Shown here: one piece after another, positions 1,171 to 56,177 of the stretch
How positions within the stretch are numbered: the first letter of the stretch is position 1
How the letters are laid out: every line of letters begins with the position of its first letter
Assembly (NCBI GenBank): GCA_020091685.1
Contig: CM034597.1
Span: 35,085,301 to 35,149,300 of the forward strand
Origin: Lutjanus erythropterus
Taxonomy: Eukaryota > Chordata > Actinopteri > Lutjaniformes > Lutjanidae
Length of the DNA: 64,000 nt
Direction of reading: 5' to 3'
The notes under the pieces: generated by a model
Database searches by the model: none
The model's input: the letters and a program-made list of their open reading frames with translations, nothing else
Told to the model about the DNA's origin: nothing
Made by a program: the position numbers and the translations under genes

Positions 1171-1512
1171 AAGTATCGGTATCAAGAAGAAGAAGGGGCA
1201 TCACCAGGTGCCCCGAAACTCCACCAACACCCCTGCCATCAGCACCCAATGGGAGTAGCCAGAGAGCTGAGGGACGGAGGGACCCTGGGGAGGGAGGGGA
1301 GGGAGGGGAGAGAGGGGGGGACCTGGAGGAGAGAAGGAGGGGGCGCCGGGACCATGGAGAGAGAAAGGGAACGATCACTGGGGAGGGACGGATCTCTCGG
1401 CCGCCACTGTGACCTGCGGGGCGCGGAGCTGGTGCAGGTGGCGGAGCGGCAGCTGTCTCAGATTCAACACGTTCACGGATACGTCACTCACACACACATC
1501 ACGCCCGCTCAG
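1171..1512 (+). CDS. dlg1: DLG1 exon KYRYQ...HITPAQ, with Arg/Gly/Glu-rich expansion
   Basis: This internal coding exon has 114 codons and is phase 0 at both ends (acceptor CTATAG, donor CAG/GTAACT). It opens with KYRYQEEE, the motif that begins the shared N-terminal region of DLG1, DLG2 and DLG4. It closes with RGAELVQVAERQLSQIQ and HVHGYVTHTHITP, matching the DLG1/DLG2 block ELVHVSEKNLS...VHGYV. In mammals the two blocks are about 20 residues apart. Here about 70 residues intervene, rich in Arg, Gly and Glu (GREGREGREGG, MERERERS), encoded by GGGAGG-type repeats. The region lies N-terminal to the PDZ domains, between the L27 or palmitoylated N-terminus and PDZ1. An ATG at 1249 is in frame but is not needed as a start, because the homology begins before it. 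The exon ends are secure; whether the whole expansion is retained in mRNA is inferred from the open frame. Confidence 0.88.
1287..1320 (+). repeat. G-run tract inside the exon (potential G-quadruplex)
   Basis: Successive runs of three to seven G separated by A, AGA or similar short spacers satisfy the usual G-quadruplex pattern on the coding strand, so the pre-mRNA would carry it. It encodes the GREGREGREGG part of the exon expansion. Confidence 0.7.
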
Positions 1513-17557: not shown

Positions 17558-17827
17558 ATGAACTATATTTTCGGCAACAACACCCTGTACCCCCGCAGCG
17601 CCAGGGTAGGCGGGGCGTCCGGGGGTCAAGGGGCGGGGCTAGGAGTCAAACAGAAGCTGGGACCCAAGCGGGGCTCCTCTGAGGAGCTGGCACCTCCCCA
17701 CACCTCGTCCCCCTCCACCTCCTCTCCCGCCTCCTCCTCCCCCTCCACGTCCTCCTCTCGCTGGCAGCAGCTCCTCATGTTCTTCTCCAGGAGGAGTGCC
17801 TTCACCGACTGTATCAATGCCGGCCAG
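17558..17827 (+). CDS. dlg1: Alternative first coding exon, MNYIFGNN N-terminus
   Basis: The exon has ninety codons from ATG to donor CAG/GTAACG and ends in phase 0, compatible with the I1B exon at 44931. The peptide starts MNYIFGNNTLYPRSARVGG, passes through KQKLGPKRGSSEEL and a Ser/Thr/Pro-rich run (STSSPASSSPSTSS), and ends SRWQQLLMFFSRRSAFTDCI then NAGQ. From memory, a mammalian DLG1 isoform begins MNYIFGNNTLLYSR and carries an SRWQQ...FIDCI block before ANPPPV, so this is a vertebrate-conserved alternative N-terminus that replaces the L27-containing region. The Ser/Thr/Pro stretch is longer here and is encoded by TCC repeats. The hydrophobic-basic segment WQQLLMFFSRR could touch membranes (inference). 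Upstream, the leader is continuous. Confidence 0.85.
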
Positions 17828-34717: not shown

Positions 34718-35920
34718 TTCTCTGGTCATTCTGCACATCATTGTTAAAGGAATATTAAGAATTTTTGTCATTCATTTTTCAAGTTATCATGGACATTTAT
34801 TATCGTTACACACACATACAGACACAGATCATTAAATAAATTCAGTAGAATAGAATAAGATATGAAAGAAAATAAAATTAAACAGTATATACAGATATGT
34901 ACATATGTAATTATATTTATAACTATGCACCCAGGAAATAATTCTGTAGTGTATTTTTTTTAATTTACGTCAGGTTAAATATTAACAGCAGCATCATCAC
35001 AGTGATGGTTGACATATTCTCATAAAAAGTTTGATATCTGGGAAACGTTGCCCATCAATTTTGTCTGTATTTGAACTCAAAGTACATCCCTGTGAACACA
35101 GAGTCCACTTCCCCTCGTCCTGCAGGAGTCTTGCTTGTTGCATCCTGTCCGCTCAGAACTGCCCATGAAGTGCAACAACTTGATCCAGGATGTGGTGAAG
35201 CAGGTCTCTGTGAGACGAGGGCGCTACAGTCTGATTTCCTGTGGTTTGGCCAGCCTGAGTTCTGTTTCATCCATTTAACTTTTCATTTATTCAGGAGCAC
35301 CCTTAAGTCTCTTTCTTATCCCTGAGGATCTGAGGATGCTTGTTGATCATCTCAAGGTCCACAGGTCTTTCATCCAAACCCAACACCTGACAGAAATACA
35401 CTTATGTGTTTTAGTGGTAAAACTGAAAATATAATAGATTAAAAGAGAAAAGTATAGCAAAGTTAGAAGGAGCTACCTGCCATAGCATCTACGTTGCCAT
35501 GTGTAACAGAATAAATTAACTAATGCTGAGAAGGCTGCTTGAATTGATTGATAGGTGTGTTTGGAGACATTCTGATGACTTGTTGTTTTGTTTTTCCAAT
35601 ACTTGCACAAGTACAAGACCTGAGTTTCAGTACTAAAATATCCCACAAGTTTTATCACATTTGAGTAGTTTTTCTAAAAAAAAACAGAAAACAGATGTAT
35701 TATTTGAATCATGAAGGGCCTCCACTTTTATAAAATTGTATGTGGCCTTTGGAAGGAATTTAGGGTTCAGTGTTTTATTCAAGGACACTTCAACCTGTGG
35801 CCAGGAGGAGCTGGGGATCAAAACACCAACAATCTGGTTAGTGGATGATCCGCTCACCTGCCCGCCACTCTCCAGAGTGAGACAAATGTTTGTCTTGAGA
35901 CCAACAATCCAATCAAATTA

Positions 35921-36899: not shown

Positions 36900-37940
36900 G
36901 CTGTCATGTGCAGGAGTCCAGGGAAGACCCTAATTGGCCAGTCCAGGAAAGAGGGAGAGGAGGGAGAGTTGGAGAGACAGAGAGGGGGCCAGACACTGAG
37001 AGAGGGAGGCAGCACAGAAAGATGAGAGAGGCTGAGAAAGAGATTTGTGCATAGAGATGTGGGCCTAATATCAAATCATGATAACGGAAAGAGAAAACAA
37101 GACAAGATGAAAGAAGGAAGACAGTTTTACTCTTTTGAACTTTAATTTCTCCAGGATGGACAGACTGGATACACATCTGACAACAAAAAGAAATCAAACA
37201 GAAATCTAACCTGCGCAAACTCCTCCTTTACCTTCTCTACGTTTCTTCTGGATTATATGAATCAACACCGTCTACAGAGCGACCAACACTTAAGATACAA
37301 AGGCAGCGCGTGCAGCAACACAGATGGATAACACGAGTTACTCTGTGACTGACAATTGAAGTGAAGTGTAATCACGCGATGAGAAATCTTCCATTGGAGT
37401 GCATGAATTGACTCACATCCTCTACGGAAACCGACACCCTGGGACTGGAAGGAGGCTCAACTTGTCCATGTGGACCTGCTGCTCCTTCTTTGGGCCACAT
37501 CTTTTGTCTTACTACTGACCCAGTAACCCTGAGGGATGGTAAGAGGGTCACTGTGACCCTCAGAGGAGAAATCTGAGAAGAGGAGGGTTAAACGTCACGC
37601 TAAAGGGGATATTTTGCTTTGCTGGACGAGCTTATGCTCTAAGTATCCAAATAGGCAAAGAAATGAAAATAAAAGTGAGGTCATGTTTTAATTTTCTAAT
37701 ATTCTAGTGATCTTAACACACTGAGACACAGTGGAGAAAGGGGAAAGGCAGGAATCTCAACTCTACACTGGACAAAGAGAGAGATCGGTCGTTCGGGAGA
37801 AGCATGACCTACATTATTCGGACACAAGTGATTCTGAGGAGCTACTCCCTTTTGTCATCTCTGTAAAAGAGACGATGTGGTGCAAGTGACATAAAAAGAT
37901 AAAGAAGATCTCTTTGTGACTTTTTTTTTTATCTCTGTAG
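36900..37940 (+). promoter_or_regulatory. dlg1: Probable alternative promoter 3 and 5' leader
   Basis: GA-rich DNA (36940-37050) followed by less repetitive sequence leads to the third initiator. Immediately before the coding segment is a textbook 3' splice site: a branch-like TGTGAC, a run of ten T, then ATCTCTGTAG ending at 37940. A matching donor-like ATG/GTAAGA lies at 37538/37539. I therefore infer a non-coding first exon ending near 37538 and a ~400-base intron, but an unspliced leader is possible. The transcription start is not located. Confidence 0.45.
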
Positions 37941-37942
37941 CG

Positions 37943-38821
37943 ATGACCACTTATTTCCACAGCCATGAGTTCTGTTGTAGCCCCAAGAAGCCCAGCAGTG
38001 GCTCCACTAAGAGCAAATCAGGCAAAGGGAAGTCCAAGTCAGGGAAGGGCCACTCTCACTCCAAGCATAATCAGAATTTACTGCAGATACAGACGCCGAA
38101 TCACCAGCAGCAATCCTCACCACTGCACTCACCAAAGCACCATTCGCCCAAACATGGCTGCCATTCGCCCCAGCATTTGGTTCCTTCGCCATCTCCTAGC
38201 TACTACCACATAGCACCGACGTCTCCAAGTCATCAGCTAGCTCCGCCGTCGCCGACCTTCCAGGTGGCTCCACAATCACCGACTCGCCTGCTCCAGTCGC
38301 CAAGCCACCACCAGCTTCACCTGTCACCGAGTCACCATCAGCTGCAGCATCACTGTCAAAACCATCCGCCGCCGTCGCCGAGTCACATGCTTTCATCGCA
38401 GTCGACGCATCAAATCTACCACCAGCAACAGCAGCAGCAGGTGCAGCTCCATTCACCCAGTCACCACTCGCTGTTCCAGTATCAGCACCACCACCACCAC
38501 CACTACCCTCCTCCTCTTCCTCACGCCTCCCAGTCGCTGTCTATCCACCCTTTTCACTCGCCGCAGCTCCCCCTGTGTTCGGGGCTGGGCGGGTATGGGT
38601 GGAGCACACTACCGACCAACCTGGCGACCAGGGGCTCCAGAGGAAAGTTTCCCAACCTGAAGGACAGCGTGAAGAAGAGTCCCACAAAGAGCAAAGGCAA
38701 GGGCAAGGCCGGAAGCAGGCCATGGCCAAATGACACGTACATCTGGACCGCATGTTCAATGGAAACGCCCCCACACGCGCCACTCATACACCACTTTCCA
38801 CAAATACAGGCACATGTGCAG
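37943..38821 (+). CDS. dlg1: Alternative first coding exon with a 293-residue His/Gln/Ser/Pro-rich N-terminus
   Basis: This is one of the longest open frames in the window. I chose ATG 37943 because a strong acceptor ends at 37940; an upstream in-frame ATG at 37916 would be intronic. The exon ends at CAG/GTAGGT in phase 0, so it can join the I1B exon (44931). The peptide begins MTTYFHSHEFCCSPKK, with a Cys pair at residues 11-12. A Lys/Ser/Gly segment (KSKSGKGKSKSGKG) follows, then about 150 residues dominated by Ser-Pro, His and Gln (SPSHHQL repeated, Q6 and H6 runs). The last third is less skewed (GKFPNLKDSVKKSPTKSKGK, RPWPNDTYIWTACS). More than a dozen Ser-Pro sites suggest proline-directed phosphorylation. 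The Cys pair recalls the palmitoylated cysteines of PSD-95 and PSD-93 (inference). I recognise no homologue; the Cys-Cys start and Pro/Trp-rich end only vaguely recall DLG3. Confidence 0.7.
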
Positions 38822-41624
38822 GTAGGTTTGATGGGTGGAAAGTAGATGGATGAATACAGACAATAGAGTGTTAGGCCAGTGTTCTTATGCAGTGTTCATA
38901 TTTCAATTATTTTGACAGATGTTGCCATTGCGATATGATTCGCAGTTGGTGGAAATGATCATTTTTGCATCACAATTTTGGTTTTCATTGAAAAAAACTA
39001 TTGAAGTCATGATGAAGTGCAGAGAATGGAAGTAACTCCTACTGTACTTAAGTAATAAGTATTTTTTGACAACATTTTACTTTTGCTCCCCACATTTTGT
39101 CACAGACGTCTACTTTGAATACATTACATTTTCAAAACAAGCTTGTTACTTACTTACTTTTATTTTTTATTAATTTTTTACTTTTATTTTTTTATTTTGC
39201 ATCATTGTGAACTGCCTTTCCAACATCAAGATGGATTTCAACCTAAATGAATTGAACAATAACACATAGAAAAGATGTAAACAAGACAAAAATGATGCAA
39301 GAGATGAAACAAAATAAAACAAATAAGAGAGGGAGGCTTTACCACAGAGAAGAGCACAGGTTAACAATAGCTGCTAGAAAATGTCCATCGGATATTTTAC
39401 TTTTATAATGAACACATTTCAAAGCCTCTACTTTTACCCAAACATATTTTCTTACATTTGGAGAACAAGATTTGTAGGTCAGGGCATCTCTGCAGAACTA
39501 CAGTACTTCATTATAAAGCTGTTTTATCACACATTTTACGTTTTTCAGAAAATTGCAGCTTTATTGCACTTGGCCATTTTGCTAGTTTGATAATATTTCG
39601 ATTAATTGTGCAGCCCTAAATCTGACCGGAGCTCTGAGGTGACTGTCATTAATTTAGCTTTTTTGTTCTTTGTTTGTTCTTCTAATTAATATGCTGTTGG
39701 TGTAACTGTGTGTATGTGCACTGTAAATCCTGTTGAAGTGCAGGTGAACGTAGTGAGGATCAGTCAAATTGCACATGAGAACACAACAAAACCTAAAGCA
39801 CTAAGTCTTAAATAAAATGCAAGAAGTATTGGTTGGATAATTATTCCCAATCTGAAAATAACTTAAAGATAGAATCAGTAGAATTTGTCTGAGATGTTCA
39901 TAAATGCAGCAGAAAGTGGTGGGTCTAGTGGGTCATGAGTGCTGATTGAAAGGGATTTATGTGAGTCTGCACAGAGTCTGCAGCACATTACACCTTTAAA
40001 CTCTAAAAAAAGTAGGAAGAATAATACTGTATCGAGAAACATAACAAAAGTTATGTAGTCAAATTGATTGCATAATCCATTAATGTTCAAAGTACTTCTG
40101 GAATCAATACATGTCAAGATATATTAGACACTAAAGGAATGATGGGACAAAGAGAGACAGGAAGAAATCTAATTTGTGATATCCATTTCCATCAAACACG
40201 TAATATCACCGTGTGATGAGACGTCTACAAAGAACACTGCCTGCTGTCAGATCAACACTAAGAGTTGCACTGGTATCTGACCACAGCAGTGGACGCTCAC
40301 TACAGCGATGCTGCCTGTTATCTTTGTTGTGCTTCAGTGTTGTGCTCTGAGTTGTTGTTCAGAGTGTGTGTGGGCTGTTACTCCAACTTTTTCTCTGAAG
40401 GTTGCTGAGAGCAGTTTTCAGAAATGTAGGAAACTGACAGAAACACCAAACAGAAACACATCAGGGTGTGAAAGAAAATAATACATCACGCCATTTGCTT
40501 GGGTTACGTAGTTATTGTGCCGTACATCTGCTGTGGGCACATTGATCAGAGATAGCAGGTAGTGATAGTCTGATTAGTGTGATTAGTGCGGCCATTCTGA
40601 TTTGATTAGAGCCACGCTCCGTCTGATTAGCTCATCAGTCAAATGGAGTTTTATTGGAAGGCATTAGGAAGACAGAGTGGATAGTGATATTAGAAGTGGA
40701 GTATTTGTGTGTGTGTCAGTGTGTATCTTCACCTCTCAGTGCAGGCTCTTCTGCACTACAGATACAATTTAAAGTACACCCTTAGAAATAAAGGTGCTAA
40801 CTGGAACCATACAGTGTTCTTTGGCTTGTCCCCATTGGAGAACCATTTCTAAAGGCCTTACTTGGAACCCTGTCAGAGACGTACCTGTTTTGAGGCATCT
40901 ATGAGTGTATTACTGGTGTGTGGGGTATATCTTTAATATGTCTCACAAGCTGTTCAAGCAATCTTTTGTTGTCATTTGTTACACAGATTTGGTGCAGAAT
41001 TTAACCAGCGAAGGCAACTTGAGAATTGATAAACAATCCAAAATACAACATTAAGACCTTGATGACCTTGAGATTTTGTGCGCTTCTGTTCTGGAAATTG
41101 CTCAGAGACTCTGTTATTGTCAATATACCTAAGAAAGCCATCCATCATCTGAAGGCTCCAGGTGTCTAGTTTGTGGTTGTGAAGTTTCATGAGGTTGTGA
41201 TGATCCTAGAGGTCACAATAGGTCATTTTATAGTGTGGCCAAGTTTCAAAAAAATGCTTTCACGACAATGAAATGGCGACTACAGAGACTAATATTATCA
41301 CAGGTGAATACAGTTGGGCTTGTTGAATCCACAAGAGTCTCACCTTTCCAGTCAGACCCAATTAAAGCAAATGCAGGAACTCCAGTTTGCAGGAATGTTA
41401 CAAATTTTTAGAATAGGTGAGAAGAATACATTTACACTGCATGCTAAAAAACTACTTTTAACTGAAACTGCATGGGATTAACATGGAGTGGTTATGTTTG
41501 TAAAGGGGAGACTCTTGGAAAGCCATAGAGTGGTCAAAAGACCCCTTGGCAATGGCAGCTTCTCCTTTGCCAAAATTTAGCCTAACTTTTGAGCTTTATT
41601 TATCCCTCTTCCAGACGAGCTAGC

Positions 41625-44930: not shown

Positions 44931-44984
44931 GCCAACCCCCCTCCAGTGGTGGTCAACACCGACAGCGTCGACACCCCGCCATAT
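44931..44984 (+). CDS. dlg1: I1B exon (ANPPPV...TPPY)
   Basis: The exon has 18 codons, phase 0 at both ends, acceptor CTCTCACAG and donor TAT/GTGAGT. It encodes ANPPPVVVNTDSVDTPPY, which aligns without gaps to the 18-residue DLG1 insert I1B and is the clearest single-exon evidence that the gene is DLG1. In DLG1 the I1A/I1B proline-rich inserts are alternatively spliced and have been linked to SH3-domain binding. Being a multiple of three, the exon can be skipped. It is the first common exon that all three N-termini in this window can join. Confidence 0.92.
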
Positions 44985-49599: not shown

Positions 49600-49650
49600 G
49601 TCAATGGAACAGAAGCAGACTATGAGTATGAGGAAATCACGCTGGAGCGG
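49600..49650 (+). CDS. dlg1: Linker exon VNGTEADYEYEEITLER before PDZ1
   Basis: The exon has 17 codons, phase 0 at both ends, acceptor GTCTGCAG and donor CGG/GTAAAA. The peptide VNGTEADYEYEEITLER matches DLG1 (VNGTDADYEYEEITLER) with one conservative change; DLG2 has EIEYEFEE and DLG4 EGEMEYEE. The last residues EEITLER form the first beta strand of PDZ1. The donor departs from consensus at its last exon base position (CGG/GTAAAA) but is usable. Confidence 0.93.
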
Positions 49651-53422: not shown

Positions 53423-54598
<1,176 letters not shown>

Positions 54599-54768
54599 GG
54601 TGAATGACTGTATAGTCCGGGTAAACGAGGCAGACGTCAGGGAGGTGACCCACAGCGGGGCTGTGGAGGCACTGAAGGAGGCGGGAGGTCTGGTCAGACT
54701 TTGTATACGACGCAGGAGGAGCCTCACTGAGAGAATCATGGATATCAAGCTGGTCAAAGGGCCCAAAG
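54599..54768 (+). CDS. dlg1: PDZ1, second exon, through PDZ1-PDZ2 spacer
   Basis: The exon has 170 bases, completing Arg with its first base and leaving one G for the next exon (donor AAAG/GTGAGA). It encodes [20 protein letters not shown], then [20 protein letters not shown] and [17 protein letters not shown]. The His in [10 protein letters not shown] is the helix-B residue that reads Ser or Thr at ligand position -2, making PDZ1 class I. The short spacer before PDZ2 has SLTER where mammalian DLG1 has PVSEK, and the beta strand has LCIRRRR for LYVKRRK. This is more divergence than in neighbouring exons and fits one of two teleost duplicates. Confidence 0.95.
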
Positions 54769-55221: not shown

Positions 55222-55358
55222 GTTTAGGATTCAGTATAGCAGGTGGAGTTGGAAACCAACACGTCCCGGGCGACAACAGCATCTACGTGACTAAGATCAT
55301 CGAGGGAGGGGCTGCACACAAAGACGGACGGCTACAGATAGGAGACAAGCTCGTAGCT
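55222..55358 (+). CDS. dlg1: PDZ2, first exon
   Basis: The exon has 137 bases, entering with two bases that complete Gly and ending in phase 0 (donor GCT/GTGAGA). It encodes [20 protein letters not shown], then [20 protein letters not shown] and DKLVA. With the split codon the loop reads GLGF. The block [16 protein letters not shown] is diagnostic of DLG PDZ2, with Val for the usual Ile in [14 protein letters not shown] corresponds to LQIGDKLLA in DLG1. Confidence 0.95.
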
Positions 55359-56032: not shown

Positions 56033-56177
56033 GTGAACGCCTCCTGTTTGGAGGAGGTAACTCATGAGGAGGCAGTGGCCGCGCTAAAGTCGACTCCTGA
56101 CGTCGTTTACCTCCGTGTGGCCAAACACACCTCCCTTTTTATCAATGACAACTTCCCTCCACCCGACGTCACTAATT
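56033..56177 (+). CDS. dlg1: PDZ2, second exon, and start of the PDZ2-PDZ3 linker
   Basis: The exon has 145 bases, enters in phase 0 (acceptor GTCTCCAG) and leaves one base (donor AATT/GTAAGT). It encodes [20 protein letters not shown], then [20 protein letters not shown] and FPPPDVTN. The [10 protein letters not shown] helix carries the class I His. [11 protein letters not shown] matches DLG1 rather than DLG4 (GLEDVMHEDAV). PPDVTN is the conserved start of the linker that follows PDZ2. [11 protein letters not shown] replaces the usual KPTSMYMNDGY, so the linker edge is somewhat diverged. Confidence 0.95.

Follow-up and report, generated by a model that had tools for sequence, protein, structure and literature searches.

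A likely alternative coding first exon in a teleost dlg1 gene with resemblance to the epsilon-type start of DLG2

Among the described starts of DLG proteins, the closest to the one analyzed here is an alternative N-terminus of mammalian DLG2 (PSD-93), MNAYLTKQHSC..., presumably the epsilon form; the beta form of PSD-93 is presumably the one with the MICHC start. In the DLG1 genes of mammals, the KYRYQ exon is used by the L27 and the palmitoylated forms. According to a 2017 report, DLG2 has two coding first exons, each with a promoter of its own, which are the counterparts of the beta and epsilon starts of the mouse; one of them, CFEin8, is located in intron 8 (PMC5518101). These exons have AG/GT donors and are expressed in fetal brain, and no reads entering them from upstream were seen (PMC5518101). 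Neither exon was included in the human and mouse reference gene models that the report used, and among 29 patients with partial DLG2 deletions, 90% carried deletions of these coding first exons (PMC5518101). The human exons are deposited in GenBank as KY368394 and KY368395, and the mouse ones as KY368396 and KY368397 (PMC5518101). In the mouse, the epsilon and delta exons of Dlg2 can splice onto exon 6, and the choice of start bears on the cell location of the DLG2 isoforms (PMC6389146). The order of the exons leads us to infer that the epsilon exon is CFEin8 and that the I1B exon discussed below has its equivalent in exon 6 of Dlg2.

The window analyzed here is a stretch of 64,000 nucleotides (64 kb) of the genome of Lutjanus erythropterus, and the DLG gene that it carries includes the following exons.

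1171..1512, + strand: KYRYQ / MAGUK_N_PEST exon (Pfam PF10608, E 3.3e-10), phase 0 onto I1B
17558..17827, + strand: MNYIFGNN-type alternative first exon, joining I1B in phase 0
44931..44984, + strand: I1B exon ANPPPVVVNTDSVDTPPY, the expected splice partner of the exon under study (the phase-0 join is open)
49600..49650, + strand: exon VNGTEADYEYEEITLER, part of the joined reading frame
53450-53574, 54599-54768, 55222-55358 and 56033-56177, + strand: PDZ1-PDZ2 exons, from the joined peptide, for which DLG1 is the best fit

Judged by sequence comparison, this gene is dlg1, as the preliminary description of this DNA had proposed: the peptide from ANPPP to PDZ2 is identical to human DLG1 at 183/227 positions (81%), as opposed to 173/226 for DLG4, 169/227 for DLG2 and 148/206 for DLG3 (77, 74 and 72%, respectively), all against human references. 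The name dlg2, suggested by the known DLG2 starts, was ruled out by the exon-by-exon comparison, which pointed to dlg1. Among PDB sequences, the matches of the PDZ1-PDZ2 peptide are led by two-PDZ chains of DLG4, with DLG1 first among the single-domain chains, and the top chains come from DLG4, DLG1 and DLG2. Elsewhere in the genome (938 Mb, 444 contigs), DLG loci were found at C13:38.17 Mb (best fit DLG1, referred to below as the second dlg1 gene), C11:31.35 Mb (best fit DLG2), C8:25.6 Mb (best fit DLG3) and C11:23.14 Mb (best fit DLG4, by a narrow margin), and weaker PDZ matches are also present at other places. The head of the fish dlg3 (C8:25590001-25670000) reads MHKHHHCCKCPECYEVTR... and is near mammalian SAP102, while in dlg2 (C11:31256057-31340359) the KYRYQ and ASPAPIIVNTDTL exons are 84 kb apart.

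The exon under study lies between the KYRYQ and I1B exons of the window, and its parts and splice signals are given below.

37920..37942, + strand: acceptor-like tract TTTTTTTTTTATCTCTGTAG plus a 2-nt leader before the ATG; T-rich, with TAG ending at 37940
37943..38821, + strand: candidate for an alternative coding start of dlg1, based on its open frame, donor and periodicity and on a homolog in the second dlg1 gene
38093..38572, + strand: Ser/His/Pro/Gln-rich stretch, codons 51-210, from composition and alignment; for the most part lacking in the C13 copy and in the DLG2 form
38591..38731, + strand: conserved core GYGWSTLP...GKFPNLKDSVKKSPTKSKGKGKAGSRPWPN, matching the human DLG2 form (42%, E 3.7e-5) and the exon of the second dlg1 gene
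38822..38827, + strand: 5' splice site GTAGGT, phase 0 (CAG/GTAGGT fits the consensus at 8/9 positions)

The open frame is 293 codons long (MTTYFHSHEFCC...QAHVQ), begins with the ATG at 37943 and, as had been described for this 879-base frame, ends at a consensus donor in the phase needed for an open join to I1B. Its length by itself is only moderate evidence for coding. The composition is also as reported earlier, with CC at residues 11-12, a KSKSGKG segment, Q6 and H6 runs, and 16 Ser-Pro pairs by our count (at least 15 had been claimed). From 38821, the path through 44931, 49600, 53450, 54599, 55222 and 56033 gives a single stop-free frame to the end of PDZ2 (56177). The KYRYQ, MNYIFGNN and 37943-38821 exons are each in phase 0 onto I1B; since the first two end in phase 0, and splicing of a phase-0 exon into 37941 leads to an immediate stop, its most likely role is that of a start, a use suggested by the constraint described below.

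The exon scores 85.7 for three-base periodicity, whereas the median of 2105 windows, each of 879 nt and taken at a step of 30, is 5.7; the 25 highest-scoring of these windows in the 64-kb stretch all overlap 37943-38821. Masking of the Q and H runs lowers the value of the exon to 68.1. The source of this signal is mainly codons 51-210 (matched by 0/1000 shuffles), whereas that of codons 1-50 is matched by 7/1000. The last 83 codons show no periodicity beyond shuffles (269/1000 reach it); the coding evidence for this part is conservation. A codon comparison of the internal repeat units (pS 0.80, pN 0.35) was disregarded, since these units had been chosen on the basis of their peptide.

Although presented as unrecognised, the exon does have relatives. 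With the 293-aa peptide as query, two places were found at E<=1, i.e., the exon itself and C13:38185127-38185261 (minus strand, E 0.21), the latter being located in the KYRYQ-I1B interval of the second dlg1 gene and on the coding strand of that gene; against the 80-kb C13 stretch alone, the E-value is 4.6e-5. The frame at this place (C13:38185112-38185480, minus strand, 123 codons, MTTHY...NLRDSVKKSPTKS) reads MTTHYPRQEL...RSRFLNLRDSVKKSPTKS...VPFSFSK and ends at an AAG/GTACTT donor in phase 0, and the distance from its ATG to I1B is 5.8 kb vs. 7.0 kb in the window. The reverse search with this exon returned the window exon first among four non-self places (E 0.029). The genome-wide E-values between these ohnologs (0.21 and 0.029) are weak alone, and the case is instead made by place and by the codon pattern of a short block. 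The peptide score between the two exons was reached by 0/5000 window shuffles, also when only residues 211-293 were used; what carries the argument is that the two agree in place, strand and phase and in their MTT start. No further place scored for the exon in the 938 Mb (8/8 candidates scored), which shows that it is not a common repeat.

Over a 20-codon core block, the window and C13 exons give pS 0.96 and pN 0.18 (this block was selected for its conserved peptide, which lowers pN but does not raise pS), and over a 32-codon block pS 0.92 and pN 0.31. In both shifted frames of the core block pS is lower than pN, with stops in one of them. Because synonymous change in the core is saturated and pN is low, in one frame only, the comparison indicates selection on the protein, that is, a coding exon. 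A DNA comparison of both dlg1 loci at E 0.001 did not detect the exon, while four PDZ exons align at 67-84%; hence, the core protein has been kept despite divergence of the DNA.

The exon of the second dlg1 gene resembles that of the window in its MTT start, a Q run, the core SRFLNLRDSVKKSPTKS, the phase-0 donor and its location in the KYRYQ-I1B interval, but has 123 residues and lacks the N-terminal Cys pair (there is no Cys within its first 70 residues), the His run and the SPSHHQL units. The window exon is about 170 residues longer, through the Ser/His/Pro/Gln-rich stretch. Accordingly, the CC pair, the SPSHHQL units and H6, which had been put forward as key features, turned out to be the least conserved ones, missing in the second gene, with the Q run alone shared. 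The one element with demonstrated constraint is L-x-DSV-K/R-K-SP-x-K, part of a conserved KxxxLxDSVxKSPxK motif in frame near the 3' end of the exon. A genome scan for the codon pattern of DSV[KR]KSP found 90 places vs. 135 for the reversed control; both dlg1 exons are among the 90, and none is in the dlg2 interval on C11.

The same core provides the connection to DLG2. The human DLG2 form gave one match in the window (tblastn), at the exon, in frame, with 42% identity and E 3.7e-5; its score was reached by 0/2000 shuffles in each of three schemes and by 0/5000 further ones, although the closest full shuffle scored 73 vs. 74, which shows that composition matters in this comparison. For the exon of the second dlg1 gene, the score with the DLG2 form was reached by 1/5000 shuffles. 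Five other DLG N-termini were run as comparison, four of which gave nothing unusual; the DLG1 linker, a negative control, was reached by 3/2000 full shuffles and by 109 and 57/2000 window shuffles, which is a composition effect. Searched against the whole genome, the DLG2 peptide matched three places at E 10, all with E>=2.55 and comprising neither a dlg1 exon nor a dlg2 one, and a 38-residue piece of it had no match. In the fish's own dlg2, an epsilon-type exon was not found in the 25 kb upstream of PDZ1, with about 67 kb of the interval unread, and a brief similarity to PWLPFS, located ahead of the I1B-type exon of dlg2, was rejected, being in no plausible exon. The peptides searched for, that of this DLG2 form among them, were not found in the text of open-licence papers.

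The DLG2 epsilon form and the window exon have in common the KxxxLxDSVxKSPxK core, in frame, and an M-x-x-Y start. Based on the DLG2 studies, the two also share an AG/GT donor, their own coding start and a place relative to the exon that follows KYRYQ, which both precede (PMC5518101, PMC6389146). The order here is 1171-1512, 37943-38821 and 44931-44984, with a phase-0 donor, and the same order is found in the second dlg1 gene. On the other hand, the window exon is in dlg1, has 293 vs. about 105 residues, includes the long Ser/His/Pro/Gln-rich stretch and shows another Cys pattern. Taken together, the homology of the dlg1 exon to the DLG2 form is well supported by these comparisons but not proven.

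As had been claimed, the exon is none of the L27, MxCxC and MNYIFGNN starts: the 293-aa peptide matched 0 Pfam families at E 1, L27 included, and its first Cys is at 11-12. Joined to I1B in phase 0 with the frame open, it would replace the L27 start, as also suggested earlier. A PDB comparison of the peptide returned 14 sequences, the best at an E-value of only 0.11, which we take for composition or His-tag matches. A palmitoylated MAGUK head of the PSD-95 alpha or PSD-93 alpha/beta type was rejected, given the first Cys at 11-12 and none in residues 1-70 of the C13 copy; the CC pair could be acylated or metal-binding, but it is not conserved and is not the headline. The second dlg1 gene has a counterpart of the MICHC start, MLCHCKVACTNSTISLMFGCK. 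PSD-93 beta is described as a palmitoylated form with five N-terminal Cys (PMC7685708). The head of SAP102 (DLG3) was likewise rejected, as its similarity to the exon, equalled by 105 to 306 of 2000 shuffles, is not significant; one study describes this N-terminus as long, flexible, His- and Cys-containing and not palmitoylated, features that the exon would share, with its cysteines reported as zinc-binding (PMC10620527). Finally, the MNYIFGNN start of DLG1 is, like the exon, an alternative first exon of the same gene that can join the same I1B, but the two show no sequence similarity beyond shuffles.

Alternatively, the open frame might have arisen by chance, in a low-complexity stretch that is rich in C and poor in stops. 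Frame 1 indeed stays fully open in 7/2000 dinucleotide shuffles of the exon stretch, and the remaining two plus-strand frames also carry open runs, of 139 and 177 codons; however, chance would not account for the presence of a homolog at the equivalent position of the second dlg1 gene, for the frame-specific constraint, or for the strongest periodicity of the window, and we consider this explanation very improbable. Somewhat less remote, although still improbable, is that the exon is a relic, that is, an ancestral start that is maintained in the C13 gene and decaying here, the low-complexity expansion being a sign of lost constraint. Such decay would fit the long stretch without a real C13 counterpart and the different lengths and ends of the two exons, but not the 293 codons without stop or frameshift, the intact phase-0 donor, or a core kept with saturated synonymous change (in a two-copy comparison, the constrained copy is not distinguishable).

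A variant of the explanation that we favor, a start at this exon, concerns the acceptor-like tract. The preliminary description had a strong acceptor directly before the frame, and there is an acceptor-like tract 2 nt from the ATG (pyrimidines at 16/20 positions, then TAG, with 37941 the first base past its AG), but alone it is weak evidence because the plus strand of the 64 kb has 49 sites of similar quality, five of them with an ATG <=8 nt away. The tract may be a genuine 3' splice site that follows a 5'UTR exon, or may be there by chance. If the acceptor at 37941 were real, there would be a noncoding leader exon upstream and a promoter further upstream, and, in the extreme, the exon would be used as leader RNA only. 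The position of the tract speaks for such a leader, since, from the 49 sites in 64 kb, we estimate the by-chance expectation of one lying a few bases from a given ATG at <1/100, while the C13 copy, with merely a weak CAG ahead of its ATG, speaks against it, as does the lack of reads splicing into the DLG2 first exons from upstream (PMC5518101). Leader-only use is made less likely by the protein-level constraint, and a spliced leader would leave the protein unchanged. Overall, we regard the spliced leader as unlikely, albeit a more serious candidate than decay.

Hence, we favor, with considerable confidence, the hypothesis that the exon is a coding alternative first exon of teleost dlg1 and belongs to an epsilon-type class with further members in vertebrate DLG2 and in the other dlg1 gene of this fish. 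That is, it is most likely the dlg1 member of this class, in an enlarged variant, rather than a wholly new N-terminus; the earlier proposal of an alternative dlg1 start that is coding and in phase 0 onto I1B was borne out, but the label "unrecognised" was not, the class being known from DLG2. By analogy with DLG2, the transcript would start from a promoter located at the exon or upstream of it (or, as above, a spliced leader would precede it), translation would start at 37943, and the donor at 38821 would join I1B at 44931. The product would be a DLG1 scaffold that keeps the PDZ domains but lacks both L27 and the MxCxC palmitoylation head, carrying in their place a long, basic and probably disordered arm. 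The constrained part of this arm would be the DSVKKSPTK core, with a putative phosphorylation site of the S-P-x-K type, which is the consensus of cyclin-dependent kinases. The His/Ser/Pro/Gln stretch would be a later, copy-specific enlargement that may tune condensation or binding, and the new head could change the targeting of the scaffold.

We found no description of an epsilon-type exon in dlg1 in the open-licence literature, although the exon may already be listed as a predicted isoform in gene-prediction databases; what is new is that the second dlg1 gene carries a homolog of this start exon, placed in the corresponding interval and with the same orientation. A dlg1 counterpart would suggest that the alternative start is older than the DLG1/DLG2 split, and other vertebrate DLG1 genes are worth searching. 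Further, the DSVxKSPxK core is a short motif open to testing, and the expanded and short copies in one genome represent a natural experiment on low-complexity arms. It is tempting to speculate, as a possibility toward which we do not lean, that an ancestral vertebrate DLG had a second start before the DLG1/DLG2 split, which was kept in fish dlg1 and mammalian DLG2; one teleost dlg1 copy would then have made of it a long, kinase-tunable His/Ser/Pro/Gln arm altering the condensation and destination of the scaffold, and mammalian DLG1 would have lost the start or would hold it unannotated.

A few additional differences between the two dlg1 genes were also observed. Compared with the human form, the MNYIFGNN-type exon of the window (17558-17827) is expanded by Ser/Pro-rich sequence, and no counterpart of it was seen in 80 kb of the C13 gene. 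The latter keeps an I1A-type exon, AEATPPSSPIIPVIPVSPIAAETTIIPPT, before I1B (C13:38170001-38250000, reverse-strand position 69565-69672), while I1A had no match at E 0.1 in the window gene. Finally, within 34914-35492 of the window, two stretches, one of 230 nt (74% identity) and one of 88 nt (80%), have non-collinear matches in the C13 gene, located upstream of the MLCHC exon there, and represent either a dispersed repeat or a conserved element that has moved.
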